Virus record (IMG/VR): IMGVR_UViG_3300021364_000032
Span: 1-51,896 of that record
From: a virus
Direction: 5' to 3' (one strand)
Length of the DNA stretch: 51,896 nt
This document shows, one piece after another, positions 1,727 to 24,600 of this stretch. The stretch's first letter is position 1, and every line of letters begins with the position of its first letter. Both the position numbers and the translations under genes were made by a program. The notes beneath the pieces were generated by a model, which did no database searches, was not told where the DNA came from, and saw nothing but the letters and a program-made list of their open reading frames with translations.

Positions 1727-1740
1727 CAATGGTGTCCCTA
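1727..1740 (+). repeat. Dispersed 14-bp motif CAATGGTGTCCCTA, copy 1
   Basis: An exact copy lies 7 nt after the 100-aa gene and 22 nt before the next promoter. It is followed by GGGCACGCAT, resembling the flank of the copy at 5640. Confidence 0.75.
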
Positions 1741-1762
1741 GGGCACGCATCAAAAGAAATAC

Positions 1763-1792
1763 TTGACAGCCTACAGTCACCTGTAGTACAAT
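1763..1792 (+). promoter_or_regulatory. Sigma70-type promoter with palindromic spacer
   Basis: TTGACA (1763-1768), an 18-nt spacer and TACAAT (1787-1792). The spacer contains the perfect inverted repeat CTACAG-TCAC-CTGTAG (1771-1786), directly abutting the -10 box. It drives the 131-aa gene. Confidence 0.7.
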
Positions 1793-1830
1793 CAGAACCA
1801 TAAACCACACAACCACAAGGAGCACCCATC

Positions 1831-2226
1831 ATGGGAGACAGAGCAACCATCCGAATCAAGCAAGAAGGAAGCGACACCGCTATCCACTTCTACACCCACT
1901 GGCGAGGCAGTGAAGTGAACACCGTCGTATCCGATGCCCTACAGCGTGCAGACCGAGAAGGCCGAATCACTGACGACTCGTACTGCGCCCGCATCATCTT
2001 CGACACCCTCACCGAACTAGAAGGCAGTAGCACCGGCTACGGCATCATCATCGGTGACGACTGCCGACCCTTCGACATTGGTCACGACAGCCCTAGCATC
2101 GTCTGGACCGGATGGGGCAAGGAGCCTATCGTCGGCTTCATGGACATCCATGACAACATGACCCATCACATGCCTTGGCGAGATTGGGTCAATCTAAATA
2201 CCGCTTTGAACTTGACAAGCGTCTGA
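1831..2226 (+). CDS. Conserved phage hypothetical protein
   Basis: This 131-aa protein opens with MGDRATIRIK and continues with a YTHWRG motif near residue 22. I associate that arrangement with a small conserved phage family of unknown function. It has its own promoter and an AAGGAG site 8 nt from the ATG. No catalytic residues stand out; a HMPWRDWV segment lies near the C-terminus. The promoter of the AAA+ gene overlaps its 3' end. Confidence 0.75.
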   Translation: MGDRATIRIKQEGSDTAIHFYTHWRGSEVNTVVSDALQRADREGRITDDSYCARIIFDTLTELEGSSTGYGIIIGDDCRPFDIGHDSPSIVWTGWGKEPIVGFMDIHDNMTHHMPWRDWVNLNTALNLTSV

Positions 2227-2240
2227 CCACCTGCTATACT
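2212..2240 (+). promoter_or_regulatory. Sigma70-type promoter
   Basis: TTGACA (2212-2217), a 17-nt spacer and TATACT (2235-2240), close to consensus. It overlaps the stop codon of the 131-aa gene and serves the AAA+ ATPase gene. Confidence 0.75.
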
Positions 2241-2278
2241 TACACCCGTAAGCAACCAACTCCGAAAGGATACCAACC

Positions 2279-3004
2279 ATGAATACCGAAACCACCAACA
2301 ACTGCTGGGACACCTTCAATCAGGTTCTCAGCGCTGGCATCGACCGAATGATCCTGTTCGGTCCCCCCGGAACGGGCAAGACCTTCAGCGCCTTGCATGT
2401 CAAGAAAACACCCGGACAGGAGTCACATCGACTCACCTGCACCGACGACATGACCAACATGGACGTGACGGGCGGCTTCTTGCCTAGCGAGAACGGCTTC
2501 GACTACATCGAAGGTGCGGCCATCAAGGCTCGCCGTAGCGGTGGCCGACTCGTTGTGGACGAGATCGACAAGGCAGGCGGCGACGTGTTCGCTACCCTTC
2601 TCAACATGACCGACTCTGCGGAGTCTGCCGAGTGGGAGCATCCTGTCACCGGGGAAAAGACCTACCCTGCCGCTGGCTACACTGTCATCATGACGACCAA
2701 CGTAGAGAACGTGGAGGAACTTCCCGAGGCTCTGACCGACCGGTTCCCCGTTCGTGTCCGCATCGACCGTCCCCACCCCGATGCTCTGCTCACGCTTCCT
2801 CCCCACTGGAGGAACTACGCAGACCGGATGGCTGACGCCGGTTCGGAACGCATGTCTCTCCGACTGTTTCAGTCGATGGTCAAGTTGACGAGCCAGATGG
2901 GCGAGGAAAAGGCTGCTCAACTTATTCTGGGAGATCGTGCGAACGCCTTCTTGGAGGCCATCCGCATCGACCAGTTCCAGCAGACCCCTGAGGCGAGTCT
3001 GTAA
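2279..3004 (+). CDS. MoxR/CobS-like AAA+ ATPase
   Basis: This 241-aa protein is a single AAA+ module of the MoxR/AAA_5 type. Walker A GPPGTGKT lies at about residues 24-31, Walker B in VVDEIDKA near 85-92, a sensor-1-like TTN near 140, and an arginine-finger-like LTDRF near 155. MoxR and CobS ATPases typically remodel or insert cofactors into partner proteins together with a VWA-domain protein. Exactly such a partner is the next gene (3171-4748). A terminator and a new promoter separate the two, so they are adjacent but can be expressed independently. The substrate is unknown. Confidence 0.9.
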   Translation: MNTETTNNCWDTFNQVLSAGIDRMILFGPPGTGKTFSALHVKKTPGQESHRLTCTDDMTNMDVTGGFLPSENGFDYIEGAAIKARRSGGRLVVDEIDKAGGDVFATLLNMTDSAESAEWEHPVTGEKTYPAAGYTVIMTTNVENVEELPEALTDRFPVRVRIDRPHPDALLTLPPHWRNYADRMADAGSERMSLRLFQSMVKLTSQMGEEKAAQLILGDRANAFLEAIRIDQFQQTPEASL

Positions 3005-3070
3005 CAGATCGTGCCACGTCGATAGGTCGAATGCTGGAGTGGTGCCAGCGATCCCTATCAGGCACATTAA

Positions 3071-3103
3071 GAGGGGAGGGGGATTGGTTGGCCCCCTCCC
3101 CTC
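3071..3103 (+). terminator. Strong GC-rich hairpin terminator
   Basis: A perfect 12-bp stem (3071-3082 with 3092-3103) closes a 9-nt loop after the AAA+ gene. There is only a weak T run after it. It insulates the AAA+ gene from the next promoter. Confidence 0.8.
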
Positions 3104-3112
3104 ACTTTCGAC

Positions 3113-3142
3113 TTGACACCAACAACCAACCTATGATACACT
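3113..3142 (+). promoter_or_regulatory. Sigma70-type promoter
   Basis: TTGACA (3113-3118), an 18-nt spacer and TACACT (3137-3142); GATACA at 3135 with a 16-nt spacer is an alternative -10. It sits between the terminator and the VWA-protein gene. Confidence 0.6.
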
Positions 3143-3170
3143 TAGGTCATCATCTAGAGAGGAGATTGAT

Positions 3171-4748
3171 ATGACCATCATTGAAGAAGTACACAACAAG
3201 AACAGGCCGATGCCTGAAATCTTTACCCGAGAGGACATCCGCAACACTGGCGGCTGGGATGTCGGCAACGTTCGGGCAGTGCGAGGCGAACCCTTCATCA
3301 CTGTCTCAGGACGCATTATGCGGGTCCCCTTGGACGACTCACAACTGGCACGTGCCATCCGAGCGCATGAGCAGATTCACGTAAAAGTTTCACCTCAAGA
3401 TTTGACGCCCTACATCACTGACGTGACCGGCGAGGGCGCTGTCCGTGCGGCAGAAGAAGCCCGAGTGAACATGATTGCCTCCATGCTGGGATTCCCCATG
3501 AAGTCTCTCGTGACCGGCTCAGAGAAGTTTGACGGTGAACTGCTTGCCTCCAACAACTCATGGCCCGAAGCGGTCTATGCCGTGGCGGCGTCTGTACACA
3601 CTGGAAGCCTGAATCCTCTGATCGTCGGCATCCGACGCAGCGCTCCTGTCTGGGCCGACACTCTGCGAGACATCGCTAAAGAGATCGTCGCCTTCCAGAA
3701 GAAGCAGATCAAGAACGTCAAGAAGAGCATGTACGGAGCGAACCTCACGTCTGACTCCGACGCACTGCGGAACTACGGCAGTACTCTGTTTAACCGCAAC
3801 TCCGATACGATCATCGGCATGAACTTCACCATCGAACTTGCGATGCTTCTGGAGTCCATCGCCGCCATGCCCGTTCCCGAGCAGATGGAAGATGAGCCTG
3901 AAGAGGCAACTGCCGACACCGACGCCGAGTCCGCAGAGGACGAGAACGAGGGCGACCTCGCTACGGAAGAAGGTGAGACAAAAGTTTCATCCAAGGAGGG
4001 TGGCCTTAACGACGACGGCAAGGACAAGGAACTCAAGGAGAAGGCCGAGAAGATTGACCGTAAGGACATTCAGAAGCAGGCCAAGAAGATCATGGACAAC
4101 GCCATCGCCCGAAAGGGAGTCGGTGACTGGCTCCCCGTGCGTCTTAAGCACGTTCCTCTGACGATCACTGTACCCGGCTCCATCGGGCGCAAGCGAGTAG
4201 CCTCCAACGTTGGACGCAACCCTCGCCGGATGCACCGGATGCTCACCGATCCTGATCGCCGCATCTTTGACAAGTACGTCAAGGCCAGCGGCGGCGTCGT
4301 CCTAATCGACGTGTCAGGCTCCATGTCGCTCTCCAAGGAAGAGGTACGCAACATGATGGAAGCGGCTCCGGGGTGTACCGTCATCGCCTACTCAACAGGA
4401 TGGGACGGTGACAACACCTACGTCCTCGCAGACAAGGGGAAAATGTGTGACAAACTTCCTCGCTTCCGAGGCGGCAATGGCAACGACCTTCCGGCCATCC
4501 AGTACGCCGTATCCCGACGTACCAGCAAGAAGGCTCCCGTCATCTGGGTCACGGACGGCATGGTCTACCGCCCCGGAGGCGGCGGCACCTACGACGAAAC
4601 CGAGTGCGCCAAATACGCACAGAAGAATCAGGTTCACATGGAGTACTCCCCGAAGGACGCAATCGAATACCTTCAGGGACTCCAGCGTGGGCAGGCGCAC
4701 AAGCCTCAGGTACTGCGCAGGTGGAAGGAGCACGTCAAGCAGTCCTGA
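3171..4748 (+). CDS. VWA-domain (CobT-like) partner of the AAA+ ATPase
   Basis: This 525-aa protein has a C-terminal von Willebrand A domain with a complete-looking MIDAS: DVSGSMS at about residues 380-386 and a later VTDGM near 463. Residues about 240-290 form a strongly acidic linker, followed by a Lys-rich segment. The N-terminal part carries HEQIH at 66-70, matching the HExxH zinc-protease signature; similar HE-x-x-H stretches occur in phage CobT/VWA proteins, and I cannot show protease activity. With the preceding MoxR-like ATPase it forms the classic ATPase/VWA pair. AGAGAGGAG precedes the ATG. Confidence 0.85.
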   Translation: MTIIEEVHNKNRPMPEIFTREDIRNTGGWDVGNVRAVRGEPFITVSGRIMRVPLDDSQLARAIRAHEQIHVKVSPQDLTPYITDVTGEGAVRAAEEARVNMIASMLGFPMKSLVTGSEKFDGELLASNNSWPEAVYAVAASVHTGSLNPLIVGIRRSAPVWADTLRDIAKEIVAFQKKQIKNVKKSMYGANLTSDSDALRNYGSTLFNRNSDTIIGMNFTIELAMLLESIAAMPVPEQMEDEPEEATADTDAESAEDENEGDLATEEGETKVSSKEGGLNDDGKDKELKEKAEKIDRKDIQKQAKKIMDNAIARKGVGDWLPVRLKHVPLTITVPGSIGRKRVASNVGRNPRRMHRMLTDPDRRIFDKYVKASGGVVLIDVSGSMSLSKEEVRNMMEAAPGCTVIAYSTGWDGDNTYVLADKGKMCDKLPRFRGGNGNDLPAIQYAVSRRTSKKAPVIWVTDGMVYRPGGGGTYDETECAKYAQKNQVHMEYSPKDAIEYLQGLQRGQAHKPQVLRRWKEHVKQS

Positions 4749-4767
4749 TCGCCCACACAACGAGAAA

Positions 4768-4795
4768 GGCCGGGGGAATCCTCTCTCCCCCGGCC
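4768..4795 (+). terminator. Rho-independent-like terminator
   Basis: GGCCGGGGGA (4768-4777) pairs perfectly with TCCCCCGGCC (4786-4795) around an 8-nt loop, 20 nt after the VWA gene. A short pyrimidine run follows. Confidence 0.8.
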
Positions 4796-4807
4796 CTTCC
4801 GTCGTTC

Positions 4808-4837
4808 TGAACGGCTAACCCCGACGAAAACCGTTCA
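4808..4837 (+). other. Inverted repeat upstream of the 118-aa gene
   Basis: TGAACGG (4808-4814) and CCGTTCA (4831-4837) form a 7-bp inverted repeat with a 16-nt loop in the AT-rich leader before the next gene. It could be regulatory or a second terminator arm. No convincing -35/-10 pair is seen here. Confidence 0.4.
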
Positions 4838-4880
4838 ATGAATATATTAACTCAACAATACTACTTTGAAAGGAGGAACA

Positions 4881-5237
4881 GTGGAAGAAATGAATTTGTT
4901 TGGTCAAACAGACTTCAATGGTGTCCCTACGGATAGCATACAGACACTGTTCGACTTCTGGAAAGAGACATTCAACAAGCGAACCACAACAGTACTAGAC
5001 GATGCAAGGCGGAAGAAACTCGCCACCGCTATCAAAGCATACGGCGAGGAAACATGCCGTCAAGCAATCATTGGATGTTCACTATCCGATTGGCACACCG
5101 GGCGGAACCCCGGCAACAAGAAATACCACGACCTAACTCTCATCTTTCGCAACGCCGACAAGGTAGAGATGTTCGTGGACATCTACGAGCAAGAGCACCA
5201 AGGACAGAAGGAGATGGACGAATGGCTCAACACATGA
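4881..5237 (+). CDS. Stand-alone phage replication-protein C-terminal-like domain
   Basis: The 118-aa product contains a block around residues 60-95 (IIGCSLSDWH, a GxNPGNKK turn, YHDLTLIFRNADKVE). This block resembles the C-terminal domain of many phage replisome-organiser or helicase-loader proteins, where it follows a DNA-binding winged helix. Here it stands alone, so the DNA-binding part may be supplied elsewhere. I chose the GTG at 4881 because AGGAGG ends 4 nt before it; ATG at 4890 is possible. Copy 2 of the 14-bp dispersed motif lies inside its first codons (4916-4929). Confidence 0.7.
   Translation: MEEMNLFGQTDFNGVPTDSIQTLFDFWKETFNKRTTTVLDDARRKKLATAIKAYGEETCRQAIIGCSLSDWHTGRNPGNKKYHDLTLIFRNADKVEMFVDIYEQEHQGQKEMDEWLNT
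4916..4929 (+). repeat. Dispersed 14-bp motif, copy 2
   Basis: An exact CAATGGTGTCCCTA lies inside the start of the 118-aa gene, encoding NGVPT. Presence of the motif in coding DNA argues that the DNA sequence, not the protein, is conserved. Confidence 0.7.
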
Positions 5238-5455
5238 CATACCACGCACTACTCAACATCTACTACCGCTTTATGGAATGGCTAATGCCGAGCGACTATT
5301 GCCTAGTAGACATGCAAGACAACTTCGTGCTAGCAATGGGCACCTTTCAAGAAGTAGAACTAGCAATGGACCAGTCCTACGGCGGAACGTTCGCCATCTT
5401 CAGGGCACACGAACTCCCTGACGGCTGCGACACTACAGCAGTGGAGCCGTTCTAA
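5234..5455 (+). CDS. Small hypothetical protein
   Basis: This 73-aa protein begins with an ATG that overlaps the TGA of the gene before it (ATGA), which selects this start over in-frame ATGs further upstream. It is not recognised. An aromatic-rich N-terminus (YHALLNIYYRFMEWLM) could be a short amphipathic or membrane-associated helix. Its stop codon overlaps the end of the convergent RHH gene by 4 nt. Confidence 0.65.
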   Translation: MTYHALLNIYYRFMEWLMPSDYCLVDMQDNFVLAMGTFQEVELAMDQSYGGTFAIFRAHELPDGCDTTAVEPF

Positions 5456-5787
5456 TGAACTCTAACGTTACACGCACCACAGAACTCAGCATCCCCGATG
5501 AACTGGCTGCTATCTTCTCTGTACTCGCAGGGCCAAGGCTCACCGCACGGCCCGATCATCTTGCTGCCATCAACGTATGTACGCAACACATCCGAGACAG
5601 TCGGGATCGGAACGACAGCAGGCGGAGGGTTGGGAATGCCAATGGTGTCCCTAGCACGCATAGCAAGCACATGAGCACAGTACTGTGACATCGACATCCC
5701 CTCTTCCTCAGCAGCAGAAGCAACCAACTCTTTCACCCACTGAGGCAAATGAATGTGCAAACCAACCGACTTGTTTGGATCAGTCAT
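5452..5787 (-). CDS. Ribbon-helix-helix regulator with Cys-rich tail
   Basis: The 111-aa protein starts with a ribbon-helix-helix (Arc/MetJ-type) domain: a VGLHIHLP strand followed by helices over WVKELVASAAEEEGMSMSQYC. RHH proteins dimerise and bind short operators. The C-terminal third has cysteines (PCGEPWPCEY, then FCGACN) that could form a small metal site. It overlaps a second RHH gene upstream by 8 nt, and the two are probably co-transcribed. A copy of the 14-bp motif lies within this gene and two partial or full copies lie in the promoter area, so autoregulation is plausible. Confidence 0.75.
   Translation of the reverse strand: MTDPNKSVGLHIHLPQWVKELVASAAEEEGMSMSQYCAHVLAMRARDTIGIPNPPPAVVPIPTVSDVLRTYVDGSKMIGPCGEPWPCEYREDSSQFIGDAEFCGACNVRVH
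5640..5653 (+). repeat. Dispersed 14-bp motif, copy 3
   Basis: An exact copy of CAATGGTGTCCCTA lies inside the first RHH gene (antisense to it). It is followed by GCACGCATAGC, resembling the flank of copy 1. Confidence 0.7.
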
Positions 5788-5995
5788 CTAAATCCTCTAG
5801 GTCTTCCACGCCCGCTTCCTTCATCGCCATCATCAACAACAACTCAGTCATCGAAATACCATACCCGTCAGCAATATCTAACAGCAAGTTCTTCAAACGG
5901 GGATCAACCTTAAACGACATGCCCACCGTCTTTAATTCCAGATCGGCTCGCTTTGCTGGACGACCCGGCCCGCTAATATCAAACATCTCACTCAT
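5780..5995 (-). CDS. Ribbon-helix-helix DNA-binding protein
   Basis: The 71-aa protein fits a compact RHH fold: basic N-terminal GPGRPAKRAD, strand VGMSFKVD, then two helices ending before an acidic LEDLDD tail. It is probably a transcriptional repressor or antitoxin-like protein, but no toxin partner is seen. No SD precedes the ATG. A TATTAT box ends 6 nt before it, matching the leaderless start pattern found elsewhere here. It is the first gene of a two-gene RHH unit. Confidence 0.75.
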   Translation of the reverse strand: MSEMFDISGPGRPAKRADLELKTVGMSFKVDPRLKNLLLDIADGYGISMTELLLMMAMKEAGVEDLEDLDD

Positions 5996-6001
5996 ATTTA
6001 T

Positions 6002-6056
6002 ATAATACCATCTCTTTCATCATAAAACACCCAATGGTGTACCTATGGTGTCCCTA
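6002..6056 (-). promoter_or_regulatory. Leaderless promoter with tandem operator-like repeats
   Basis: On the minus strand TATTAT (6002-6007) ends 6 nt before the RHH gene ATG; the -35 is poor. Just upstream, 6032-6056 holds two head-to-tail copies of the dispersed motif (CAATGGTGTACCTA then ATGGTGTCCCTA) sharing one A, an 13-bp spacing. RHH proteins commonly bind tandem half-sites, so this may be their own operator. Confidence 0.5.
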
Positions 6057-6135
6057 GCGGGAGGGTGCTGCGCTGGTAGCGGCAGACATTCTTATAAAAT
6101 GTTGGACTCGGGTTCAATTCCCGACTCCCGTACCA
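6057..6135 (+). tRNA. tRNA-Ile (anticodon UAU)
   Basis: The cloverleaf has a GCGGGAG/CTCCCGT acceptor, anticodon stem ACATT/AATGT with loop CTTATAA (anticodon TAT), T stem TCGGG/CCCGA with loop TTCAATT, and an encoded CCA. The D region is about 2 nt longer than usual and lacks U8. It reads AUA, rare in high-GC actinobacteria. Its 5' end abuts copy 4 of the dispersed motif. Confidence 0.8.
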
Positions 6136-6166
6136 AATCTTGTGACTGCTTTCACGAACTCTCATC

Positions 6167-6195
6167 TTTACACCCCGAACAAGCCCCGGTATACT
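6167..6195 (+). promoter_or_regulatory. Sigma70-type promoter
   Basis: TTTACA (6167-6172), a 17-nt spacer and TATACT (6190-6195) precede the 51-aa gene, between it and the tRNA. Confidence 0.6.
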
Positions 6196-6235
6196 AGTAG
6201 TTGACCAAGCACCTGAGGAGGTGAACAGAAAACAA

Positions 6236-6391
6236 ATGGCTAAGAAGATTATGTCCCGTATTCGCAAACGGCGAGACAACCGGAAAAACATGATTCAGAT
6301 CAACGGTATCTATGTACCAAGAGACCGCAAAATGTGGACCGACGATCTAGAACGAGAAATGCTCCGAGCACGAAGCGGATTCGGATTCTAA
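6236..6391 (+). CDS. Small basic protein, 51 aa
   Basis: This short gene encodes a Lys/Arg-rich 51-aa protein beginning MAKKIMSRIRKRR. It has its own promoter, a GAGGAGGTGA ribosome site about 11 nt from the ATG, and a clear terminator after the TAA, so it is a complete monocistronic unit. The basic character suggests nucleic acid or ribosome binding; a small host-takeover protein is one possibility, but function is unknown. Confidence 0.7.
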   Translation: MAKKIMSRIRKRRDNRKNMIQINGIYVPRDRKMWTDDLEREMLRARSGFGF

Positions 6392-6414
6392 ACACACCAA
6401 CCAAAACTAACAAG

Positions 6415-6457
6415 AAAGGGGGACCCGGCTAAACTGCTGAGGTCCCCCTTTTCTTTT
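6415..6457 (+). terminator. Rho-independent terminator
   Basis: AAAGGGGGACC (6415-6425) pairs with GGTCCCCCTTT (6441-6451), followed by a T-rich tract. It ends the 51-aa gene transcript. Confidence 0.88.
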
Positions 6458-6487
6458 GCTCTAACCATGAGGGTCAACCAGCCCCGC

Positions 6488-6546
6488 CCCGTCAGCCCAC
6501 ACCGCTAAACTGACGGGACTCTCCAACCCCGGTCTACCGAACCGGG
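6488..6546. other. Two hairpins in the convergent gap
   Basis: CCCGTCAG/CTGACGGG (6488-6495, 6510-6517) and CCCGGT/ACCGGG (6528-6533, 6541-6546) lie between the plus-strand terminator and the end of the minus-strand operon. They could terminate the incoming minus-strand transcript. No gene is seen in 6392-6579. Confidence 0.5.
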
Positions 6547-6568
6547 ACTAGCCCACCCAAAAAACCCT

Positions 6569-6582
6569 CAATGGTGTCCCTA
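6569..6582 (+). repeat. Dispersed 14-bp motif, copy 5
   Basis: An exact CAATGGTGTCCCTA whose last three bases form the stop codon of the minus-strand 109-aa gene. Confidence 0.7.
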
Positions 6583-6909
6583 CCGCAGCCTCGTACCGCA
6601 CTCCAAACAAATCTCAGCCCAAGGATACGACTGACGCTTCTCCAACGGATGAGTACAGGTGAAAATCTCACGCCACCGTGCATCCGCCATCTGCCGCAGC
6701 CACTCCGACACAGACAGGCCATCAGCCTCAGCCGCCTCCTGCCACTGCCCCCGCTGAATCTCCCCAACACGAATCAGCACCTGACGATCACGCACCTCCT
6801 CGGGCGGGACCTCCTCAGGATCAGCCAACGCCGCCTCAACAGCATCAGCCACCTTAGCCCTCTTCACCTCATCAGCCAAAAAAGTTTGTTTCAAATAATC
6901 ACTAGACAT
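6580..6909 (-). CDS. Hypothetical protein with C-terminal zinc-knuckle-like motif
   Basis: The 109-aa protein has a helical, acidic N-terminal two thirds. Near the middle, GLSVSEWLRQMADARW is RHH- or helix-like. The C-terminus has FTCTH and then ICLECGTR, a probable zinc-binding pair. The ATG at 6909 was chosen because it overlaps the stop of the upstream gene by 8 nt and has GTGAGG 7-8 nt before it. It is cotranscribed with the putative small terminase; a packaging role is conceivable but unproven. Confidence 0.7.
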   Translation of the reverse strand: MSSDYLKQTFLADEVKRAKVADAVEAALADPEEVPPEEVRDRQVLIRVGEIQRGQWQEAAEADGLSVSEWLRQMADARWREIFTCTHPLEKRQSYPWAEICLECGTRLR

Positions 6910-7522
6910 CGCTGTCCTCACTTTCATCAACAACCTCAGCCTCCACGACCTCGGAAGAACTCACATTATCCAAAATATTATTAACCACAGAAGAATCCAA
7001 AACACCAGACGAAGACATCAACTCCAACAACGCCAAAGCCTCACCCTTAGCATCACCCTTATCAACCTCCGCCACAGGACCACCAACCAACGAAGACGTA
7101 ACATCCACCACCTCAGACCGCTCCAAACCAGAAATAGCAACCTCAGTACGCTCAACATTCATCCCCAACAACTTCGCCCTACGATCCATAATACCCAACA
7201 CAGTACGAACAGCATTCTGATCAGGCTCCAACATCACCTCAGAACCATCATCCAACACCTCACGCCTAAACTGAGTCAAAGGCCACACAGACTTCTGCAT
7301 CTCATCCAAACGCTCCAACTCCAACCTCAACACCTCAGGATACGACAACCAAGCCTCAGAATTCAACCGACCCAACTGACGCCGAGTAGCAGCAGCCACA
7401 GCAGCAGCCGTCATATTAAACCGCTTAGCAATATCAGCATTCGACACACCCGACTTCTTCAAACCAAAAATCCGGGCATCCCGCTCAGCCAAAAACTCCT
7501 TAGAAAGTTTATTAGAATCCAT
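6902..7522 (-). CDS. Putative terminase small subunit
   Basis: The 206-aa protein begins with a helix-turn-helix (residues about 15-50: IFGLKKSGVSNADIAKRF and TAAAVAAATRRQ). A helical segment follows, in which LELERLDEMQKSVWPL and a later VRTVLGIMDRRAKLLGM resemble phage small terminases and related HTH proteins. The last 70 residues are acidic and low complexity. Small terminases recognise the packaging site and regulate the large subunit; no large subunit is in the window. GGTGGAGG precedes the ATG. An alternative is another HTH regulator. Confidence 0.65.
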   Translation of the reverse strand: MDSNKLSKEFLAERDARIFGLKKSGVSNADIAKRFNMTAAAVAAATRRQLGRLNSEAWLSYPEVLRLELERLDEMQKSVWPLTQFRREVLDDGSEVMLEPDQNAVRTVLGIMDRRAKLLGMNVERTEVAISGLERSEVVDVTSSLVGGPVAEVDKGDAKGEALALLELMSSSGVLDSSVVNNILDNVSSSEVVEAEVVDESEDSDV

Positions 7523-7567: not shown

Positions 7568-7969
7568 TCAACTCCGATTCAAATGCGACCACACCTGAGC
7601 CAACGTAAACCGCTCCACACGAACACCCCTACGCTTAGCCTCAGCATCCAACTGACGAGGAGTCAACCCAGCCCACACACCATGCTGATCCGAAGCCGGA
7701 AACGACAACGCATACTCCAAACACTCCTTACGCACAGGACACTGCCTACACATCCTCCGAGCCTCCGAAATATACGACAAATCCTTATGCTCCCGAGGGA
7801 ACATCTTATCAGTCTTGTCCTTACACAACGCATCCTGAGACCAGTGGTATTTGGTGGGTTCTGGTGGGGTGTTTTGGGGTGAAATGGGGGGTTTTGGTGC
7901 TTTGTTTGGTTGTATAGGTGTTCGGATGTTTTTGGTTATGCGGTTGAGTGGGTTTGTTTCTTTTTCCAT
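7568..7969 (-). CDS. whiB: WhiB-family transcriptional regulator
   Basis: The 133-aa protein has the four Fe-S ligand cysteines of WhiB proteins (C49, then C74-x2-C77-x5-C83) and the GVWAG turn at 97-101 followed by a basic C-terminal region. WhiB proteins bind a [4Fe-4S] cluster and act with the principal sigma factor; phage homologues can repress host whiB genes. The N-terminal 40 residues are an unusual Pro/Thr/Asn-rich extension. The DNA strand composition flips sharply within this extension, near 7850. AGAAGGA precedes the ATG. The family strongly implies an actinobacterial host. Confidence 0.93.
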   Translation of the reverse strand: MEKETNPLNRITKNIRTPIQPNKAPKPPISPQNTPPEPTKYHWSQDALCKDKTDKMFPREHKDLSYISEARRMCRQCPVRKECLEYALSFPASDQHGVWAGLTPRQLDAEAKRRGVRVERFTLAQVWSHLNRS

Positions 7970-14007: not shown

Positions 14008-14706
14008 ATGCACGTACAGGATAACTTCATCACAGACCCAGACTTGATAGAGGCAATCAAGCAGGACGAGACATTCTTCCCGCCTGTCATGGACACCTTT
14101 GAAGACCGTGGAAGTCTTGGCGACTATCACGGACAGCAGTACCACAGCGAAGAGGCATCCTGCTTTGCCCCTTACATGTTCTGGGATGGCTGGTGGAACT
14201 CCCCTGCCGACACGCTCAAGAAGCAAGTCATTCAGGCCATCTGGCAACACCCCGAAACACGAGACTTTAATCTAGAAGATGTAATTGGGTTTGAGTACTG
14301 GACACGAACTTTCGTCCCACCTCAGTACCTGCCGCACCACGTAGATGAAGACACATTCCAATATGCTCACGATAAAACATTCAACGCCCCCATCAGCGGA
14401 TGCATATGGTACGGCTTTACCGAAGCAGACGAAGGAGGAATGCTAGAAATACATCGTCCTCGTATTGAAGGCTCCCCTTCAGAAGTCTTAGAAGCAGATC
14501 AGGCTATCACATATCTCAGTCCCCCTGACGAGAGAGAACGGATTGCATACAAGCCCAATAGGTTAGTTGTTTTCGACGCTGGCCGAAGATTCCATGAAAC
14601 CACTGTAGTGAAATCGGGGACACGGCAAGTCATGGTAGTCAATGTATGGCATAAGGATAGCCCGCCGAGGGCACTGAGCACAGGAGAGTTCTTCTATGAA
14701 TCTTGA
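14008..14706 (+). CDS. 2OG-Fe(II) oxygenase 1
   Basis: The 232-aa protein is a jelly-roll 2-oxoglutarate/Fe(II) oxygenase. The iron triad reads H111-V-D113 and H196, with R206 ten residues later for the 2OG carboxylate; an EGGML motif lies at 142-146. It is the most divergent of the P4H-like proteins here, with no YxGGE-type strand. It starts a three-gene plus-strand group (14008-16106) of oxygenases with overlapping ends. The substrate is unknown. Confidence 0.85.
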   Translation: MHVQDNFITDPDLIEAIKQDETFFPPVMDTFEDRGSLGDYHGQQYHSEEASCFAPYMFWDGWWNSPADTLKKQVIQAIWQHPETRDFNLEDVIGFEYWTRTFVPPQYLPHHVDEDTFQYAHDKTFNAPISGCIWYGFTEADEGGMLEIHRPRIEGSPSEVLEADQAITYLSPPDERERIAYKPNRLVVFDAGRRFHETTVVKSGTRQVMVVNVWHKDSPPRALSTGEFFYES

Positions 14707-15541
14707 ACATTTGGGAACAGGGATTGTCAAAATCTCTAATGCCGTATCCGTAAACACCGATATTTTCCCTGCAATCGAATCTCTACGACAAGACGCTCTA
14801 GACAACCACTACACCTACGTGTGTGACGACGACGGTAACATGCTACATGCCACTAACTTAAGTGGTCATCGCTTCACACCAGAAGAACTAGACGCAAACT
14901 GCGTAAGAATAAACAACTTTCACGAACTTGAAGAGGAATGGCAAGCGGCTTACTTCAAAACATTGGAGACTGAAATCTACGACGCCCTGCTCAAATATGC
15001 AACTCAGTTCCCCATGATTATCCCGTGCTTGTGGTGGAAAACAAAAGGACACGTGCTGTCATACAAGCCCGGATCAGCATTGGGCCTTCATGCTGACAAC
15101 GACATCAACTATCAGCCGCATCACGAGCCTGATTATCAACTCGGCATCAAGCATGTCCTAGCAGCAATCGCCTACCTCAACGACGACTATGAGGGCGGCG
15201 AAATTGTTTTCCCATACGCAGATGTCACGTATTCACCTAAAGCCGGAGACGTTCTACTGTTTCCGGCAAACTTTATTTGTGCCCACGAAGTCAAACCAAT
15301 CACCGCAGGTAACAGATACGCCTACCTATCATACTTTGGACAAGGTTCTTCTGCACCAGACTACGGTGTGACAATCATCGAAGATGACCACAACATCAAC
15401 AGTGGACAAGTATGGATGCACAACCTATTCAAAGACTACGCCAACTACGTTAAATACAACGAACTTAGCGAAGACTTACTACTCCCAATTCACAGAGCAT
15501 TTAACTCCACAGGAACCCGAGAAGAAATCAACAATGCATAA
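14696..15541 (+). CDS. 2OG-Fe(II) oxygenase 2, prolyl-4-hydroxylase type
   Basis: The 281-aa protein has a full P4H core: H132-A-D134, YLNDDYEGGE (160-169), LFPAN, H197 and R207. The WWKTKGHVLSY block before the HxD is shared with oxygenases 4, 5 and 7, so these are paralogues. Prolyl-4-hydroxylases oxidise peptidyl proline using O2 and 2-oxoglutarate; phage homologues could act on protein or small molecules. It overlaps the previous gene by 11 nt and the next by 8 nt. Confidence 0.93.
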   Translation: MNLEHLGTGIVKISNAVSVNTDIFPAIESLRQDALDNHYTYVCDDDGNMLHATNLSGHRFTPEELDANCVRINNFHELEEEWQAAYFKTLETEIYDALLKYATQFPMIIPCLWWKTKGHVLSYKPGSALGLHADNDINYQPHHEPDYQLGIKHVLAAIAYLNDDYEGGEIVFPYADVTYSPKAGDVLLFPANFICAHEVKPITAGNRYAYLSYFGQGSSAPDYGVTIIEDDHNINSGQVWMHNLFKDYANYVKYNELSEDLLLPIHRAFNSTGTREEINNA

Positions 15542-16106
15542 AGTATCGTTAGTAAACATACCGTATTTTTTTGGCCTCATTGAAGACGTAGACAATCAAC
15601 TCATAAGCCAACAAATTATTGACTACGGCGAACCTCACGGCCAAGACATACTGCTGCCCGATTCCTCCGAGATTAACGAACTACTGACCCGCCTAACACG
15701 CCTAGTCCAATACGGTGCAGAAAACGCCGAGTTAATACTCAAGTCCCAGTGGGCGCTAAACTTAAAACAAGGCGAAAGTGTAGAGCCACACTCGCATCAC
15801 GCAAACTTCCACATATACCCTGAAGATTACTGGTCCGTAGTGTACTATCCTGTTGCAGACGAAAACTCTGCCAAACTTATACTGTCAGCCACGTGGTGCA
15901 ACACCGTAAACAAAAACACCCACGTGCAGCCCCAGACAGGTATGTACGTTGTCTTTCCCTCATACATATTACATTGGACAGAGCGACAGCAGTCCGCCGA
16001 GAACAGGCTTTCAATTAACGCAACCTTTGCACCAGAAGAACCAAACATGGCCCCCAATGTAGACTTCTCAATCTATGACCGGCGTCCACCCATCGGACCC
16101 GCCTGA
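15534..16106 (+). CDS. 2OG-Fe(II) oxygenase 3, TIGR02466-like
   Basis: The 190-aa protein resembles the putative 2OG-Fe(II) oxygenase family TIGR02466 found in many marine phages. It has PHSHHANF (His86, 88, 89) as proximal ligands, a VVFPSYILHW strand with distal His147, and R158. No clear HxD is present, so the acidic ligand is uncertain. The ATG at 15534 overlaps the previous stop by 8 nt. Its 3' end overlaps the convergent oxygenase 4 by 34 nt. Confidence 0.75.
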   Translation: MHKVSLVNIPYFFGLIEDVDNQLISQQIIDYGEPHGQDILLPDSSEINELLTRLTRLVQYGAENAELILKSQWALNLKQGESVEPHSHHANFHIYPEDYWSVVYYPVADENSAKLILSATWCNTVNKNTHVQPQTGMYVVFPSYILHWTERQQSAENRLSINATFAPEEPNMAPNVDFSIYDRRPPIGPA

Positions 16107-16843
16107 CTATCGGAAATCAGATCGGGCATCCAGATTCTAGGGCCAGCCTGCCCAACAACTTCATTGTTGACAGTATCAACACCGTAGCAGGCCATACTCA
16201 AAAATGCGACTCGCCTTCCTGACTCCACAGGATAGACTTCGTGACGGCCAACATAACTGGATGGGTAGATGGCAACTGAACCGGCTTCAGGGGCAAATGC
16301 GTGCTCGGCATGAGGAAAGTTAATCTCTCCACCAGTGTAGTCGGTCCCACAGTTGTTTAGATAAAGATTGATGCTTGTGCTGTTGTGCATCGACACTTGG
16401 TTGGGCGGGGACTCGCCCCACTCAAACGGCACCTGATCATCGCAATGCGGACCTATGTTCTGACCCGCATCGTAGACAGCAACATGGCCCTGTGGCCTCC
16501 ACCAAGCAGTCGTGGCCGCATCGGGGAAAATCTTGCAGTACTCAACCAGCGCACGGTACAGGGCGTCCTCACAGGCGTCCACAAAGTCTAGGTACTCCTG
16601 CGGCGCTTCTTCACCACGGTTGCGTCCACGAGTGTCTAGGAACCGCTGAGGAGCCATACCGATGTCCTCAAGACTGAACTTGAATCCTGTCTGATTAACA
16701 GCGTGATCCTTTTCAAACTTGAAAGTTTCCTCAGACTGGCCGGTCAGCCACCCGCAATATTCTGCAAAAAAGTCCGGGTCAATGTCCAAAACATTACGAC
16801 AAATAACCACACCCATACCGACGTGCTCTGATGTAATCATCAT
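16073..16843 (-). CDS. 2OG-Fe(II) oxygenase 4, prolyl-4-hydroxylase type
   Basis: The 256-aa protein has H133-C-D135, YTGGE (169-173), YPSSYVGRHEV with H201, and R210/R211. The AWWRPQGHVAVYD block before the HxD matches the paralogues. It is the last gene of the minus-strand oxygenase operon. Its ATG overlaps the preceding stop by 4 nt (ATGA). Confidence 0.92.
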   Translation of the reverse strand: MMITSEHVGMGVVICRNVLDIDPDFFAEYCGWLTGQSEETFKFEKDHAVNQTGFKFSLEDIGMAPQRFLDTRGRNRGEEAPQEYLDFVDACEDALYRALVEYCKIFPDAATTAWWRPQGHVAVYDAGQNIGPHCDDQVPFEWGESPPNQVSMHNSTSINLYLNNCGTDYTGGEINFPHAEHAFAPEAGSVAIYPSSYVGRHEVYPVESGRRVAFLSMACYGVDTVNNEVVGQAGPRIWMPDLISDSQAGPMGGRRS

Positions 16844-17733
16844 CCCTCCGAATTAAGTAAAGTAGTTCGATACTGCTCTGAGTTGTGATCGTAACCACGC
16901 TCATCTAGAAATGCCCGATAGTCTTCCCGTAGCGTCGGCATCCACACGTTCGTGCTTACCTCTGCGCCTTCTGGGTTCTGCAACGGATCAACAACATCCT
17001 CCCGCACGGCAGGATTCGGAGTACCCTGAGAATACCATCCCAAGTACGACATTCTCCTACCCTTACCTACCGGACGAACTTCGTGGGCAGCAACGTAATT
17101 GGATGGGAAGAATATGATAGTTCCAGCCTCAGGAACAATAGGATCAATGTTTAAGTAGTTGAAGTTATGGGTACCCTCAGTAAAGTTTCTGCCGTCCAAC
17201 TCAGACTCAGGTACCGATGAGTTTAGGTACGTCACATTAGACACGACATTGCGTAGGGCTAACTCTTGCGAAGTGCGATGAACTCCGTAGATATACTCAG
17301 CGCTAATGTCTGAATGCGATCCGAGGTACACCCCATCTCCGTAAGACACTACGTGCCCTTTCACCTTCCACCACACACAGTTGTACGCCAAAGGATAACA
17401 CGTGAAATACTTTAACAAACACGCATCTTTAGCCGCCTCTAATTCGGCCAGTAACTCACGAACGTCTTCCCGAGGGTTTAAGTGCAGCGATGACCCACGG
17501 CGAGGCATTGACTCATAAGTATCCAGCCCAAACAAATATCCGCTTCTGTTCTCATAAGCAACCTCACCGGTTTCAGGGTCAGTCACTTCAGTGTACATGC
17601 CCGCATACTCTTCGTCCACTAAAGTAGAAATTTCGTCATACACTTTGTCCCAGTCGCAGGAGACAGCATTGCGAAAAATAACTACACCGCCGCCTAAGTC
17701 TTCCGGCTCTGGATCATTGTACTTGATGAACAT
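16840..17733 (-). CDS. 2OG-Fe(II) oxygenase 5, prolyl-4-hydroxylase type
   Basis: The 297-aa protein has the GGGVVIFRNAV start shared with oxygenase 7, then WWKVKGHVVSYG, H140-S-D142, FFPSNYVAAHEV with H217, and R227. The usual YxGGE strand is replaced by a longer NFTEGTHNF loop (184-191). TTGACA/TAAACT stands 6 nt before its ATG, so its mRNA should be leaderless. Confidence 0.9.
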   Translation of the reverse strand: MFIKYNDPEPEDLGGGVVIFRNAVSCDWDKVYDEISTLVDEEYAGMYTEVTDPETGEVAYENRSGYLFGLDTYESMPRRGSSLHLNPREDVRELLAELEAAKDACLLKYFTCYPLAYNCVWWKVKGHVVSYGDGVYLGSHSDISAEYIYGVHRTSQELALRNVVSNVTYLNSSVPESELDGRNFTEGTHNFNYLNIDPIVPEAGTIIFFPSNYVAAHEVRPVGKGRRMSYLGWYSQGTPNPAVREDVVDPLQNPEGAEVSTNVWMPTLREDYRAFLDERGYDHNSEQYRTTLLNSEG

Positions 17734-17739
17734 ACAGAT

Positions 17740-17768
17740 AGTTTACTGAAACAGATAATCGTTGTCAA
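17740..17768 (-). promoter_or_regulatory. Leaderless promoter
   Basis: TTGACA (17763-17768), a 17-nt spacer and TAAACT (17740-17745), then ATCTGT and the ATG at 17733. It lies over the 3' end of the upstream oxygenase 6 gene, allowing separate expression of oxygenases 5 and 4. ATCTGT also follows the -10 of the 50311 promoter. Confidence 0.78.
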
Positions 17769-18564
17769 TGGAGTGATGACTACAGAAATATCCTAGAAAC
17801 TTTCGTTCTCCCGGCTTGAACCCGCCTGCAACAGCGTGAGACATGAGAAACAAATCACTAATCAGCATGTCACCAACTTCCCAGTTCCACGTCAAAAGAC
17901 TAGATAAGTTGTAAACAATATCAGTTTCGATTATGTCTACATGTGCCTCAAATTGAGATTTTTCGTTTTCAGTAGGCTCACGCCCATCAAAAGAAAACAA
18001 ACTTACATCCCCTTGGCAGATTCTCAAAACCTCAGCCTCTTTAAACGGGTGCTTCTCCACAGCATTACGTGGATTGGAATGAGTCAGGTTACCTTTCCTG
18101 TCACTAATAACTGAACTTGTAACGACCGCTTTTCGCATGAAGTCCACCGTGTCAGATGGTAGTGCTTCAAGCAACTTAGAGTTGTTTTTAAAGTAAGTCA
18201 TGCCCACCGAAGGAGAACAATCAAACTTAAGCATATTCCAAAAACCGGCAACTGTAGAATTCTCAACAGATGAAAAAACATGCTCCAAATGCCAGTTTAC
18301 AGAAAGATCAAGTTCTGTGTGATATCCATGTGCGAACGTATGCTCGTGGTCTTCTTCGTAACGTCGAAGCACAGTACGATCAAAATCGTCGTTTCTTGGA
18401 ACCCATCCGACATAATCACCCATAGCAAGGATGATATCTAACTGCTGTTCTTCAGTAGCGTTCAACCCACGAATACCAAAAACGCCGTCGTGCAGAAACT
18501 TCCATGCAAAGTATTCTGGGTCGCTCATTACATCACGGTAAGAGCAACGGATTACCTCAATCAT
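17743..18564 (-). CDS. TauD/gamma-butyrobetaine-type dioxygenase-like protein
   Basis: The 273-aa protein has the layout of TauD/TfdA dioxygenases: NWHLEHVFS (H92-L-E94), a TYFKNNS strand near 123-129, and distal MSHAVAGGFKPGERKFLGYF with H243 and R254. The acidic ligand is Glu rather than the common Asp. TauD-type enzymes act on free small molecules, unlike the peptidyl-P4H-like neighbours, so a metabolite or residue-linked group may be involved. It overlaps oxygenase 7 by 4 nt (ATGA). Confidence 0.75.
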   Translation of the reverse strand: MIEVIRCSYRDVMSDPEYFAWKFLHDGVFGIRGLNATEEQQLDIILAMGDYVGWVPRNDDFDRTVLRRYEEDHEHTFAHGYHTELDLSVNWHLEHVFSSVENSTVAGFWNMLKFDCSPSVGMTYFKNNSKLLEALPSDTVDFMRKAVVTSSVISDRKGNLTHSNPRNAVEKHPFKEAEVLRICQGDVSLFSFDGREPTENEKSQFEAHVDIIETDIVYNLSSLLTWNWEVGDMLISDLFLMSHAVAGGFKPGERKFLGYFCSHHSIDNDYLFQ

Positions 18565-19628
18565 GATTCGATTGGCACACCGTCAGTTCCGCAATTGGCC
18601 GCATCGTCTACGGTCTCAGCGTCGTGAGTGGTACCGTACTGTGCTACACATCGGCCCTGATAGACAGGATTGATACCAATGTTCTGCTCTTCGCCCGTGG
18701 AAAATCGTGAATACTCTGACTTGCAGTACTTCTCGTAATCGTCGTAAATGTTGTTCATCCACATAGCGGGGCACCACTGAAAACTATCGGCAGGCTCAAC
18801 AATGTTAATGTTTGCCTCTTGATGTGGTGAACCCTGACCAAAGAACGACAGGTAACTGTATCGTACCCCGGCATCCATTCGGCTAACCTGATGTGAGGCC
18901 ATGTAGTTCGTGGGGAAGAACACAATGTCGCCCTTCTTGGGCTTGTACTCAATGCCGAGGTGGAAGAACTCTAGAACGCCCCCAGTGAAGTTGGTGCCGT
19001 CTAACTCGTCTTCGCTATCCACCGAATCGTTTAGGTACACGAGGCATCCGCAGGTCTGCCGTGCGGCCATCTGCCCACGAGGCATGTATCTGACTCCTTC
19101 AGTGACCTTGTAGTTTGTATCATTGTCACAGTGAGCGCCGAGGATGCCCTCGTCGGCGTAGCGAAGAATGTGTCCACGGTTCTTCCACCATACGCACCCA
19201 ACAATGAGGGGGAAGTAGTCAATGTAACGAATTAGCGCTTTGTAAATAGTGTCTTCCATGTTGTGAAAGAACGCACGGGGGACATCAGGCGTTTCTTCAG
19301 TGACAGGGTGAAGCAAGCGAACCGGTGTTGCGGGAATATCTTCAGGCCGGTAACGGAATCCGTCTTCATTGATTCCGTACTTTTCACCATCCTCGCCAAC
19401 GATGTATTCCCATCTGTTTTGATGAGAAACTTCAGACTGTGCGTCAATGTACTTGAAAACTTCCTCAGTGTCCCCCTGTACAGCGTTACGGAAAACTAAT
19501 ACACCGCCACCCAAGTCTTCTACTTCAAACTCACCAATTTCCTTGATGGCATCGTCGTCAATTGTAGGTGTGTCTGGATGCGGTTCACCGCTTCGCCAGT
19601 CTTCAGGCTGGATATTGTCATCTGTCAT
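18561..19628 (-). CDS. 2OG-Fe(II) oxygenase 7, prolyl-4-hydroxylase type
   Basis: The 355-aa protein is the longest of the set: an acidic N-terminal 35 residues, then EDLGGGVLVFRNAV, WWKNRGHILRY, H166-C-D168, FTGGVLEF (214-221), FFPTNYMASHQV with H246, and R256. It continues past the core with a C-terminal extension of about 85 residues with Cys and Trp. Paralogous to oxygenases 2, 4 and 5. The gene begins one nt before the end of the methyltransferase-like gene. Confidence 0.92.
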   Translation of the reverse strand: MTDDNIQPEDWRSGEPHPDTPTIDDDAIKEIGEFEVEDLGGGVLVFRNAVQGDTEEVFKYIDAQSEVSHQNRWEYIVGEDGEKYGINEDGFRYRPEDIPATPVRLLHPVTEETPDVPRAFFHNMEDTIYKALIRYIDYFPLIVGCVWWKNRGHILRYADEGILGAHCDNDTNYKVTEGVRYMPRGQMAARQTCGCLVYLNDSVDSEDELDGTNFTGGVLEFFHLGIEYKPKKGDIVFFPTNYMASHQVSRMDAGVRYSYLSFFGQGSPHQEANINIVEPADSFQWCPAMWMNNIYDDYEKYCKSEYSRFSTGEEQNIGINPVYQGRCVAQYGTTHDAETVDDAANCGTDGVPIES

Positions 19629-19629
19629 G

Positions 19630-20373
19630 TTACTGCTTTACTAAAATATGGAACCCGATAGCGTGGGGGATATGGTAACTTGTAATGTCTGTACGGTCGT
19701 CTAATACTTCGTACATATCGTACAACGGCTCAATGTAATAGTCCGATGAGTAGAGGCGCATCATTTCGTTAACGCCCGAAAGATAAATAGCGCCCCCAGA
19801 ATTTGTAACGTCTACCACTTTATCAATCAAAGCCGGGTTGATGGTCAAATCAACAGAGTGCATGTGAACAAAATCAAACTGTGGCTCCGTCATTGCTTCT
19901 AACTCTTCAACTTCCATGACTGTGTAATCTCCAGTGAAGTTGCAATCTGGGTGTGTTAAAACGTGTGCCTCAAATGCTTGCAAACAGTCGTTGTTTAAGA
20001 AGGTTAGAGCGCACCCTTTTCTGTTCAAGTCTAAAACAAAATCAAAGTTTCTATCAGGTGACGCAACTAGAGCAGTTGTGGGCTGAATAAGATCAGCAAC
20101 CATCTGCGAGTAAATCCCTGTAGAGATATAAACCATCTCTTTCCATCCCGCAACTTTGCCGGAAAGCAAGTCCCACACATGCATGTAGAAATCTGCTCCG
20201 ACAGCGATGGAGCGCCGGTCCAAATTCTTGGAAGTCCAATCAGCATTTACGGCCCTAACGATATCGTCGTGAACCTGAAAGAAATCGTAATCCAGTGCTT
20301 GTGAAGAGTTCTTAGAAAACTCGTAAGTCAAAGCATTCGCAATTAAGAACTTATTACCTAAAATCTTATCCAT
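19630..20373 (-). CDS. Methyltransferase-like protein
   Basis: The 247-aa protein has the late Rossmann pattern of class I methyltransferases: FDFVHMHSVDL at about 176-186 (motif IV position) and GGAIYLSGVNEM near 206-217. A clear glycine-rich SAM loop is not visible; residues 75-115 (KEMVYISTGIYSQ... and LVASPDRNF) may supply it. It is placed inside the oxygenase operon, overlapping a 99-aa gene by 8 nt. A SAM-dependent transfer is the best guess; it could also be a degenerate homologue. Confidence 0.55.
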   Translation of the reverse strand: MDKILGNKFLIANALTYEFSKNSSQALDYDFFQVHDDIVRAVNADWTSKNLDRRSIAVGADFYMHVWDLLSGKVAGWKEMVYISTGIYSQMVADLIQPTTALVASPDRNFDFVLDLNRKGCALTFLNNDCLQAFEAHVLTHPDCNFTGDYTVMEVEELEAMTEPQFDFVHMHSVDLTINPALIDKVVDVTNSGGAIYLSGVNEMMRLYSSDYYIEPLYDMYEVLDDRTDITSYHIPHAIGFHILVKQ

Positions 20374-20665
20374 TTACGATACTCCTTGCTAACTGCCAAC
20401 GATGCCACAAGCGGCGAGCATTTACCATCAGCAACACATTGATTTCTTTTAACGCATCATTCGATGCCAAACTATGCCCTTCCTGCAACCGCAAGAACGG
20501 GAAAGTTGCTTTAATCTGAGCAACAATATCGTCAAAAGAAGATGATGAAATGTTGCCTGTCTCCATACCCAGCACATACATGATGCTGATTAAATCTCGC
20601 TCTACATGGGCAAGATCAGCCACAGCGTCATAGGCGGGTGTGCTAGCGTTTCCAATTCTACTCAT
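20366..20665 (-). CDS. Hypothetical protein, 99 aa
   Basis: The helical 99-aa protein is not recognised. Start ATG 20665 was chosen because it overlaps the stop of the next gene upstream by 8 nt. The C-terminal half (ALKEINVLLMVNARRLWHRWQLARS) could be amphipathic. It sits in the unknown block between methyltransferase-like and peroxidase-like genes. Confidence 0.68.
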   Translation of the reverse strand: MSRIGNASTPAYDAVADLAHVERDLISIMYVLGMETGNISSSSFDDIVAQIKATFPFLRLQEGHSLASNDALKEINVLLMVNARRLWHRWQLARSIVNG

Positions 20666-20933
20666 CAGCAAACTCGTCTAAACTCTCGGCGGACATAGGA
20701 AGTGAAGTGCGTAGCGGATCAATTTCGCCTGAGTAAAAGTGGCACATAAACCCCTCTCCTGACGGAACATTCCATGCCGTTGTTGAGGTGTCGAACTTGA
20801 CAGGCTCCTCAGCAATCTGGGAACTTTCTGTAGGATCAAACCCCTCGTCAGGCTCACCAAAAGCATAGATGTCCACGCCAGAGGCTTGTGCCTCAGTTTC
20901 CACGGCACCATCAGTTACGGTATACTTCTTCAT
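20658..20933 (-). CDS. Hypothetical acidic protein, 91 aa
   Basis: The acidic 91-aa protein is not recognised. It lacks basic patches, with a possible beta segment TTAWNVPSGEGFMCHFY at 51-67. ATGA overlap with the 72-aa gene supports coding. It may be a small substrate or scaffold protein, since neighbours are modification enzymes; no direct sign is seen. Confidence 0.68.
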   Translation of the reverse strand: MKKYTVTDGAVETEAQASGVDIYAFGEPDEGFDPTESSQIAEEPVKFDTSTTAWNVPSGEGFMCHFYSGEIDPLRTSLPMSAESLDEFADE

Positions 20934-21148
20934 GACTCTAGTGCTTCTAGGTTCTCCACCATAGTTAGCAAAGACTGGTACGCAGGGTAATCAGCGTCAG
21001 CCTCAGCAACCGGGATAACAAAACTTGAATCAAGGGTTGAAGTGTCTACATTCAACATCATCGCCATAGAGACAATGTTCTGATTCAGAAAATCAATTGC
21101 CTTCTCTTTAGCCTTTTGGCGTTGTGCTTCTGAAACGGTTACAGCCAT
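20930..21148 (-). CDS. Hypothetical protein, 72 aa
   Basis: The 72-aa helical protein (MAVTVSEAQRQKAKEKAIDFL...) is not recognised. GTGAGGA lies 5 nt before the ATG. It begins a run of three small genes with the same orientation, coupled by 4-8 nt overlaps. Confidence 0.68.
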   Translation of the reverse strand: MAVTVSEAQRQKAKEKAIDFLNQNIVSMAMMLNVDTSTLDSSFVIPVAEADADYPAYQSLLTMVENLEALES

Positions 21149-21155
21149 TAGTTCC

Positions 21156-22019: not shown

Positions 22020-22051
22020 GACAACACCTTCCTCTGCTAATATTATACCGC

Positions 22052-22669: not shown

Positions 22670-22977
22670 TGCTCACTCCAAGGGTGCGGATTGCTAGAAA
22701 CGTGGCCGTCGATAGGGCACTCTAACATGGAGTGTCCTGTGTGTGGATCAAGAATCTGAACAACGCCCGTCAACATATCTTCAACAGGAGTACACTGGAC
22801 ACGTATCCCACAGTCGAAAGGCACAAGTGAATTACCGGAAAGAAAGTACGTTTCGTTTACTTTCCTGAACTCGGTAAAATCAAAACTACCCTTAAACATA
22901 TGAGCACTTCCGCAGTCATCACCCACAGGAAGATTCAGTACAAACTTTTCATCACCCAGTGGGGTGTGTGCGGTCAT
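22666..22977 (-). CDS. Hypothetical protein, 103 aa
   Basis: The 103-aa beta-rich protein (MTAHTPLGDEKFV...) is not recognised. It has several Cys (DDCGS, FDCGIRVQC, LECP) and His residues that could bind metal. ATG 22977 overlaps the TGA of the DUF6065-like gene, so this start is preferred over an upstream TTG. Confidence 0.68.
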   Translation of the reverse strand: MTAHTPLGDEKFVLNLPVGDDCGSAHMFKGSFDFTEFRKVNETYFLSGNSLVPFDCGIRVQCTPVEDMLTGVVQILDPHTGHSMLECPIDGHVSSNPHPWSEQ

Positions 22978-24565: not shown

Positions 24566-24571
24566 GGTGTT

Positions 24572-24600
24572 ATCGTATCAAACGTACCGAGTGGAGTCAA
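24572..24600 (-). promoter_or_regulatory. Leaderless promoter
   Basis: TTGACT (24595-24600), a 17-nt spacer and TACGAT (24572-24577), then 6 nt to the ATG at 24565 on the minus strand. Confidence 0.72.

Follow-up and report, generated by a model that had tools for sequence, protein, structure and literature searches.

Comparison of related contigs indicates that a 14-bp sequence, CAATGGTGTCCCTA, dispersed around the Rep-like and ribbon-helix-helix (RHH) genes of an actinophage-like contig is a real, conserved and apparently functional site, probably serving as a one-way control signal for the early-gene region. Across 11 distinct related contigs, 84 of 84 high-scoring sites share one polarity and none has the opposite one, and, as the original prediction of a link to an RHH gene pair had supposed, the sites track the neighboring genes RHH1 and RHH2. 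The window is the whole 51,896-bp stretch analyzed, an IMG/VR virus record (IMGVR_UViG_3300021364_000032), and it is counted among the 11 contigs; these form a small set whose members are akin to each other, most are fragments, and the gene calls on the relatives are simple ones of our own.

Copies of the motif in the window

Four perfect copies were refound where they had been reported, at 1727, 4916, 5640 and 6569, all on the + strand. Two further + strand copies, CAATGGTGTACCTA at 6032-6045 and CTATGGTGTCCCTA at 6043-6056, share 3 bp and thereby form a direct repeat with a period of 11. This pair had been described as head-to-tail with one base changed in its first copy; the arrangement holds, whereas the change is not confined to the first copy, each having a single mismatch to the 14-mer. 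The window thus contains six copies at five loci between 1727 and 6582, every one of them +, and the remainder yields just two 3-mismatch matches, a chance level that bears out the reported absence elsewhere. In a scan of the window, the 14-mer was the sole dispersed 12-14-mer with at least four copies outside coding repeats. The motif has the core CWATGGTGTNCCTA and then SG, and a weak TAAAA box, rich in A, precedes the core by about 12 bp. The sites and neighboring genes are as follows:

1727..1740, +, site 1: exact 14-mer between two + genes
4866..5237, +, small Rep/O-like gene: phrog_16167, E 3e-14; start possibly 4890
4916..4929, +, site 2: exact 14-mer close to the Rep-like gene's 5' end, coding for NGVP
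5452..5787, -, RHH1: 111 aa, RHH-like N-terminus, weak Pfam RHH matches
5640..5653, +, site 3: exact 14-mer within RHH1, antisense, at codons for RDTI
5780..5995, -, RHH2: 71-aa ribbon-helix-helix protein, from alignments, an AF2 model, fold matches and co-occurrence
6032..6056, +, sites 4a/4b: two overlapping copies, period 11 bp, in the gap from RHH2 to tRNA-Ile
6057..6135, +, tRNA-Ile: anticodon TAT (ARAGORN), starting directly after site 4b
6569..6582, +, site 5: exact 14-mer at the RHH3 3' end, taking in the RHH3 stop codon
6580..6909, -, RHH3: RHH protein resembling NikA, with C/H tail; Pfam NikA-like E 1e-4, below gathering
6902..7522, -, HTH206: 206-aa HTH protein; phrog_645, E 2e-14
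7568..7969, -, WhiB-like protein: Pfam WhiB, E 1e-15; right border of the site region

Both coding and noncoding DNA is therefore occupied, as first described, with sites in the Rep-like gene and RHH1 and others intergenic. Site 1 lies 23 bp ahead of a TTGACA-18-TACAAT promoter (1763-1792), and its slot is also filled in two relatives (G001 and G003). The tandem pair does sit upstream of the RHH gene pair, about 37 bp from the RHH2 start codon, but its tandem form there is exceptional: the same slot has one copy only in G001, G003 and G005, while the slot of site 5 is tandem in G001, G005, G007 and G010. The tandem form is not conserved. Contact with the tRNA-Ile gene, real in the window, was seen beyond it in G001 and G005 only, and a tRNA-Ile link was rejected because this contact is limited to the closest relatives. 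RHH proteins commonly bind repeated half-sites. As to the expected tandem half-sites, 11-bp tandem copies occur at some slots, but lag analysis of the flanks of single sites gave no 11-bp phased half-sites, nor was there a peak in support of an 11-bp phased triple half-site, which we rejected.

Among the papers listed by a literature search with the exact 14-mer, nothing dealt with phage regulatory sites. Positions 1-25000 of the window had zero nucleotide matches among 50,697 phage records, and the phage database held no relatives of the RHH2, VWA-like, HTH206 or RHH3 proteins. The window also encodes WhiB, a sigma factor and a family-A DNA polymerase. By eye, about ten consecutive genes at 14008-25785 resemble 2OG-Fe(II) oxygenases or prolyl hydroxylases, and the end of an ORF at 25824-26843 consists of many short FFPP/YFPP-type repeats, visible as 12-bp DNA repeats.

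Polarity and regional restriction

Seventy-five of the 84 sites, from ten records, were scored with a leave-one-genome-out matrix, which gave 75 of the same polarity and 0 opposite, with 1 match in Markov controls; the other nine come from G026 and agree in polarity (9/9). By our gene calls, sites occur next to rightward, leftward and convergent genes, yet all face the leftward, late-gene direction irrespective of local gene direction. The DUF932-like gene left of rep illustrates this well, as it is + in the window, G001, G003 and G010 and - in G006, G007 and G009, and site polarity stays constant across the flip.

Far from being spread evenly, the sites are confined to the left of and around the block of Rep-like, RHH1, RHH2, RHH3, HTH206 and WhiB genes. 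In ten records including the window, zero sites were found rightward of WhiB, a stretch in which leftward genes make up 82-100% of the called coding sequence. Another relative (L168) has one site upstream of its WhiB gene by about 150 bp, plus one isolated match at a distance on that contig. The ends of G010 overlap by 169 bp with two mismatches, so it is probably near complete, and its sites are confined to 50.0-68.2 kb; in the near-complete 128-kb genome, all 12 sites fall inside 18 kb.

Within this region of mostly small genes, the sites are found at operon borders, in many cases with a terminator hairpin on one side and the next promoter on the other. In contig C128 of G025 (L116, L117), most lie between the end of one leftward gene and the start of the next, mostly just after a GC-rich hairpin in the printed sequence, and 200-300 bp ahead of gene starts, a distance at which simple promoter occlusion is not expected to work. 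Some sites in the window and G001 come before a rightward promoter or gene, and in G006, G007 and G009 a site overlies the -10 of a TTGAC-N17-TATGGT promoter ahead of rep. C128 additionally carries a palindrome, GTTCCRYANNGYGGAAC, repeated between site and next gene start, with at least 15 matches in this contig and 0 in ten further records that were scanned. A different dispersed motif, GGTTG-(about 16-18)-TAACGGATAC, was observed in L147 (also L142, L145 and L146); L147 has 7 copies in one orientation and a single one in the other, and the motif looks like a phage-specific promoter.

Selection on the site DNA

Two sites inside genes are far better conserved at codon level than the remainder of those genes. 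Among same-residue comparisons, codon identity is 94% for the RHH1 site versus 46% elsewhere in the gene, and 82% for the site in the Rep-like gene versus 48% in its remainder. In G007, the RHH1 site replaces D with N and retains the T variant that dominates in that genome. The variable base in TGT[N]CC is genome-specific (permutation p 3.5e-4), and the core is constant across records of approximately 41% to 67% GC. Together, codon constraint, a genome-specific base and a GC-independent core point to a phage-encoded reader that co-evolves with its sites.

Association with RHH1 and RHH2

A search with RHH2 returned nine related contigs, all of which (9/9) have a site. Two finds made independently bear the link out. 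Among the contigs returned by a scan using the motif alone, in its tandem form, was one of 128 kb that encodes an RHH2 orthologue (E 4e-35) along with 12 sites. Scanning bacterial genomes with RHH2 gave one 20-kb MAG contig, probably of phage origin and misbinned, with 12 sites of a single polarity. The contig CALKUW010000128.1 (L106), in a Flavobacteriales MAG, shares RHH2, DUF932-like, VWA-like and AAA genes with the window and is probably a misbinned phage contig of the window's group.

A scan with HTH206 yielded 42 further loci, among them L168, with an RHH2 69% identical and seven sites of one polarity. The nine loci with RHH1/RHH2 (149 kb) contained 50 matches, whereas the 31 loci where the pair was not detected (418 kb) contained 5, against about 6 expected by chance, despite encoding HTH206 in all cases and RHH3 and WhiB in most. 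HTH206, RHH3 and WhiB therefore appear insufficient for sites, as site-less relatives keep them. A diverged RHH1/RHH2 cluster (30-40% identity) has no site array, a search for a diverged motif in the loci with distant RHH2 (L156-L162) gave none that was convincing, and some site-less records have distant RHH2-like matches elsewhere (G027, E 4e-8; G032, E 8e-5).

RHH2 has an invariant GRPxK (AT-hook-like) arm and an invariant G-SF--D strand region in alignment. Its AF2 model, with a strand at 25-29 and helices at 31-44 and 48-60, follows the RHH plan of a beta strand and two helices, consistent with the fold first proposed for it. Top Foldseek matches in the PDB were Arc, AtaR, TacA and CopG, with MatP weakly among the matches, all with E > 1 and of low significance; against curated RHH families there was no match at the cut-off, RelB falling below it (E 0.01-0.06). 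RHH1, RHH2, RHH3, HTH206 and WhiB are conserved together across the ten blast-compared records. RHH1 is present in 10/10 of these, with a conserved PCG...PC...C..C tail and a variable strand region, and has a mean identity of 51% versus 65% for RHH2. Since RHH1 and RHH2 co-occur without exception, co-occurrence does not separate them. On these comparisons, RHH2, perhaps with its operon partner RHH1, is most likely the reader of the sites, and RHH1 is a second candidate reader or a partner of RHH2.

Candidate mechanisms

We infer both RHH2 binding and a one-way block from sequence comparison. Our leading reading, offered tentatively and a little short of an even chance, is that these are dispersed polar binding sites for phage-encoded RHH2, perhaps with RHH1, acting as one-way, stoperator-like blocks. 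RHH2, perhaps with RHH1, would occupy the dispersed sites, and the occupied sites would block transcription in the leftward, late direction only, insulating units from each other and from late-operon run-through. A one-way block is favored because every site faces leftward whatever the local gene direction, and a leftward block would account for the polarity, the absence of sites from the late region, the operon-border positions and the sites inside RHH1. Self-regulation would also be probable, given that sites lie within RHH1, close to where RHH2 starts and where the RHH3 unit ends.

Strict polarity, however, does not follow readily from RHH binding, because dimers of this fold usually read DNA in a near-symmetric way and no 11-bp phased half-sites flank the single sites. 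A role in replication or packaging would yield identical polarity. In a broader version, offered with somewhat less conviction than the leading reading, an RHH protein may read a genome-polar array of one-way gates whose polarity is set by the replicon and not by local genes. If true, machinery would pass the early region in one direction and be halted in the other. Absolute genome polarity combined with a co-occurring small RHH gene pair offers a compact, testable model of directional control on phage DNA.

The plain regulon that was originally proposed leaves the shared polarity unexplained in the face of changing gene direction. In its general form, in which the sites are ordinary operators through which the RHH1/RHH2 product represses or activates adjoining early promoters, polarity would simply follow from the asymmetry of the site. 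The mostly intergenic placement near promoters, the -10 overlap in three genomes and the site upstream of RHH2 in several genomes all suit operators, but a fixed genomic orientation is unneeded when the adjoining gene flips, and many sites fall within genes, where two genes converge, or 200-300 bp away from a start; we consider this reading unlikely, if the most serious of the competitors.

A replicon-level polar element, be it leftward fork steering or stopping, a packaging or injection mark, or a MatP-, ParR- or Ter-like partition or architecture array, appears less likely again. It would fit a polarity that goes with the genome instead of its genes, sites that flank and enter the Rep-like gene, and the appearance of MatP among the fold matches. 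A fork trap or pac site would nonetheless have no need of numerous copies spread across as much as 20 kb, and the sites track gene and terminator borders; moreover, eight records including the near-complete 128-kb genome had no match to the ParA family (PF13614), and the large-terminase match in G010 lies well away from the block.

It is improbable that HTH206, RHH3 or WhiB reads the sites in place of RHH1/RHH2. All three have genes beside the sites and are conserved across the ten records compared by blast, but about 30 relatives with HTH206, mostly with RHH3 and WhiB as well, have chance-level matches only. RHH3 is found in most relatives without sites. HTH206 is also found there at about 50% identity, with RHH3 and WhiB lower, and these less similar homologues may possibly have changed specificity. 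Very improbable, finally, are recombination boundaries for swapping small early-gene cassettes, for which the promoter-early-stem-loop cassettes of T4 are a model: the order of terminator, site and promoter between small variable genes is as expected, and non-inverting exchange would preserve a common polarity, but codon conservation in Rep and RHH1, genome-wide base covariation and RHH1/RHH2 dependence require a trans-acting reader.

Promoter and terminase readings were rejected. For a T7-like promoter, no single-subunit RNA polymerase was noticed among the larger translated genes, the start base is inconsistent and sites lie antisense in genes; for a general sigma-70 promoter, a -35 is present at few sites only. 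A terminase-small-subunit reader was set aside because the match between HTH206 and the pelagiphage TerS profile was insignificant and the large terminase is not adjacent in G010.

Comparison with known systems

A period of 11 bp also occurs in 51 marine viral loci (within L022-L079; for example, L025:8497 and L048:5827), which have two to four tandem 11-bp units, ATGGTGTCCCT, in most cases then an inverted copy. The arrays are usually 100-150 bp upstream of a terminase-small-subunit gene resembling that of Pelagibacter phage HTVC023P. They share a word with the window motif, and there was no RHH2 in the records checked. A reader shared with these arrays gained no support, as the small neighboring protein had no Pfam RHH match and hhalign was negative; the resemblance is possibly due to chance.

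In its modeled fold, RHH2 is like Arc, TacA and CopG, and weakly MatP; it differs from Arc, CopG, ParR and MatP in having no curated-family match, an AT-hook-like arm and a polar, asymmetric site.

Among actinophages, Cluster O mycobacteriophages such as Corndog have more than 30 dispersed copies of 17-bp repeats, many intergenic and suspected to be regulator sites (PMC4351075). These are palindromic, and hence without polarity, whereas the sites described here are asymmetric. The start-associated sequence (SAS) of Cluster K mycobacteriophages is, like ours, asymmetric, a 13-bp sequence with 11-19 copies mostly in one orientation and in the non-structural half only (PMC3203893), but it lies 3-7 bp ahead of start codons, unlike the window-group sites, which are distant from starts and occur within genes and at their ends.

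The stoperators and operators of Cluster A mycobacteriophages (L5, Bxb1), bound by a gp71-type repressor, likewise comprise 20-30 dispersed, asymmetric 13-14-bp sites in genome-specific variants, mostly in one orientation, with some in promoters and others intergenic or near the repressor gene (PMC6550527, PMC9283540), and those of L5 are orientation-dependent (PMC9283540). The window group resembles them in that a single short, asymmetric site recurs in many dispersed copies. Cluster A orientation, however, follows transcription direction, whereas window-group polarity is constant in + and - gene contexts, and the linked Cluster A protein is a 183-aa HTH repressor, as opposed to a small RHH protein. 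The Cluster A reader is an immunity repressor of HTH type from temperate phages, while the window-group sites co-occur with RHH1/RHH2 and not with an HTH protein alone. Pfam searches found no tyrosine integrase, serine recombinase or ParA in eight records, mostly fragments, and these thus give no sign of lysogeny. We describe the set as putative regulatory sites dispersed in phage genomes, without claiming that it belongs to the stoperator family. Dispersed motifs are already known in actinophages; what distinguishes this set is a polarity that is independent of gene direction, along with its co-occurrence with an RHH pair.
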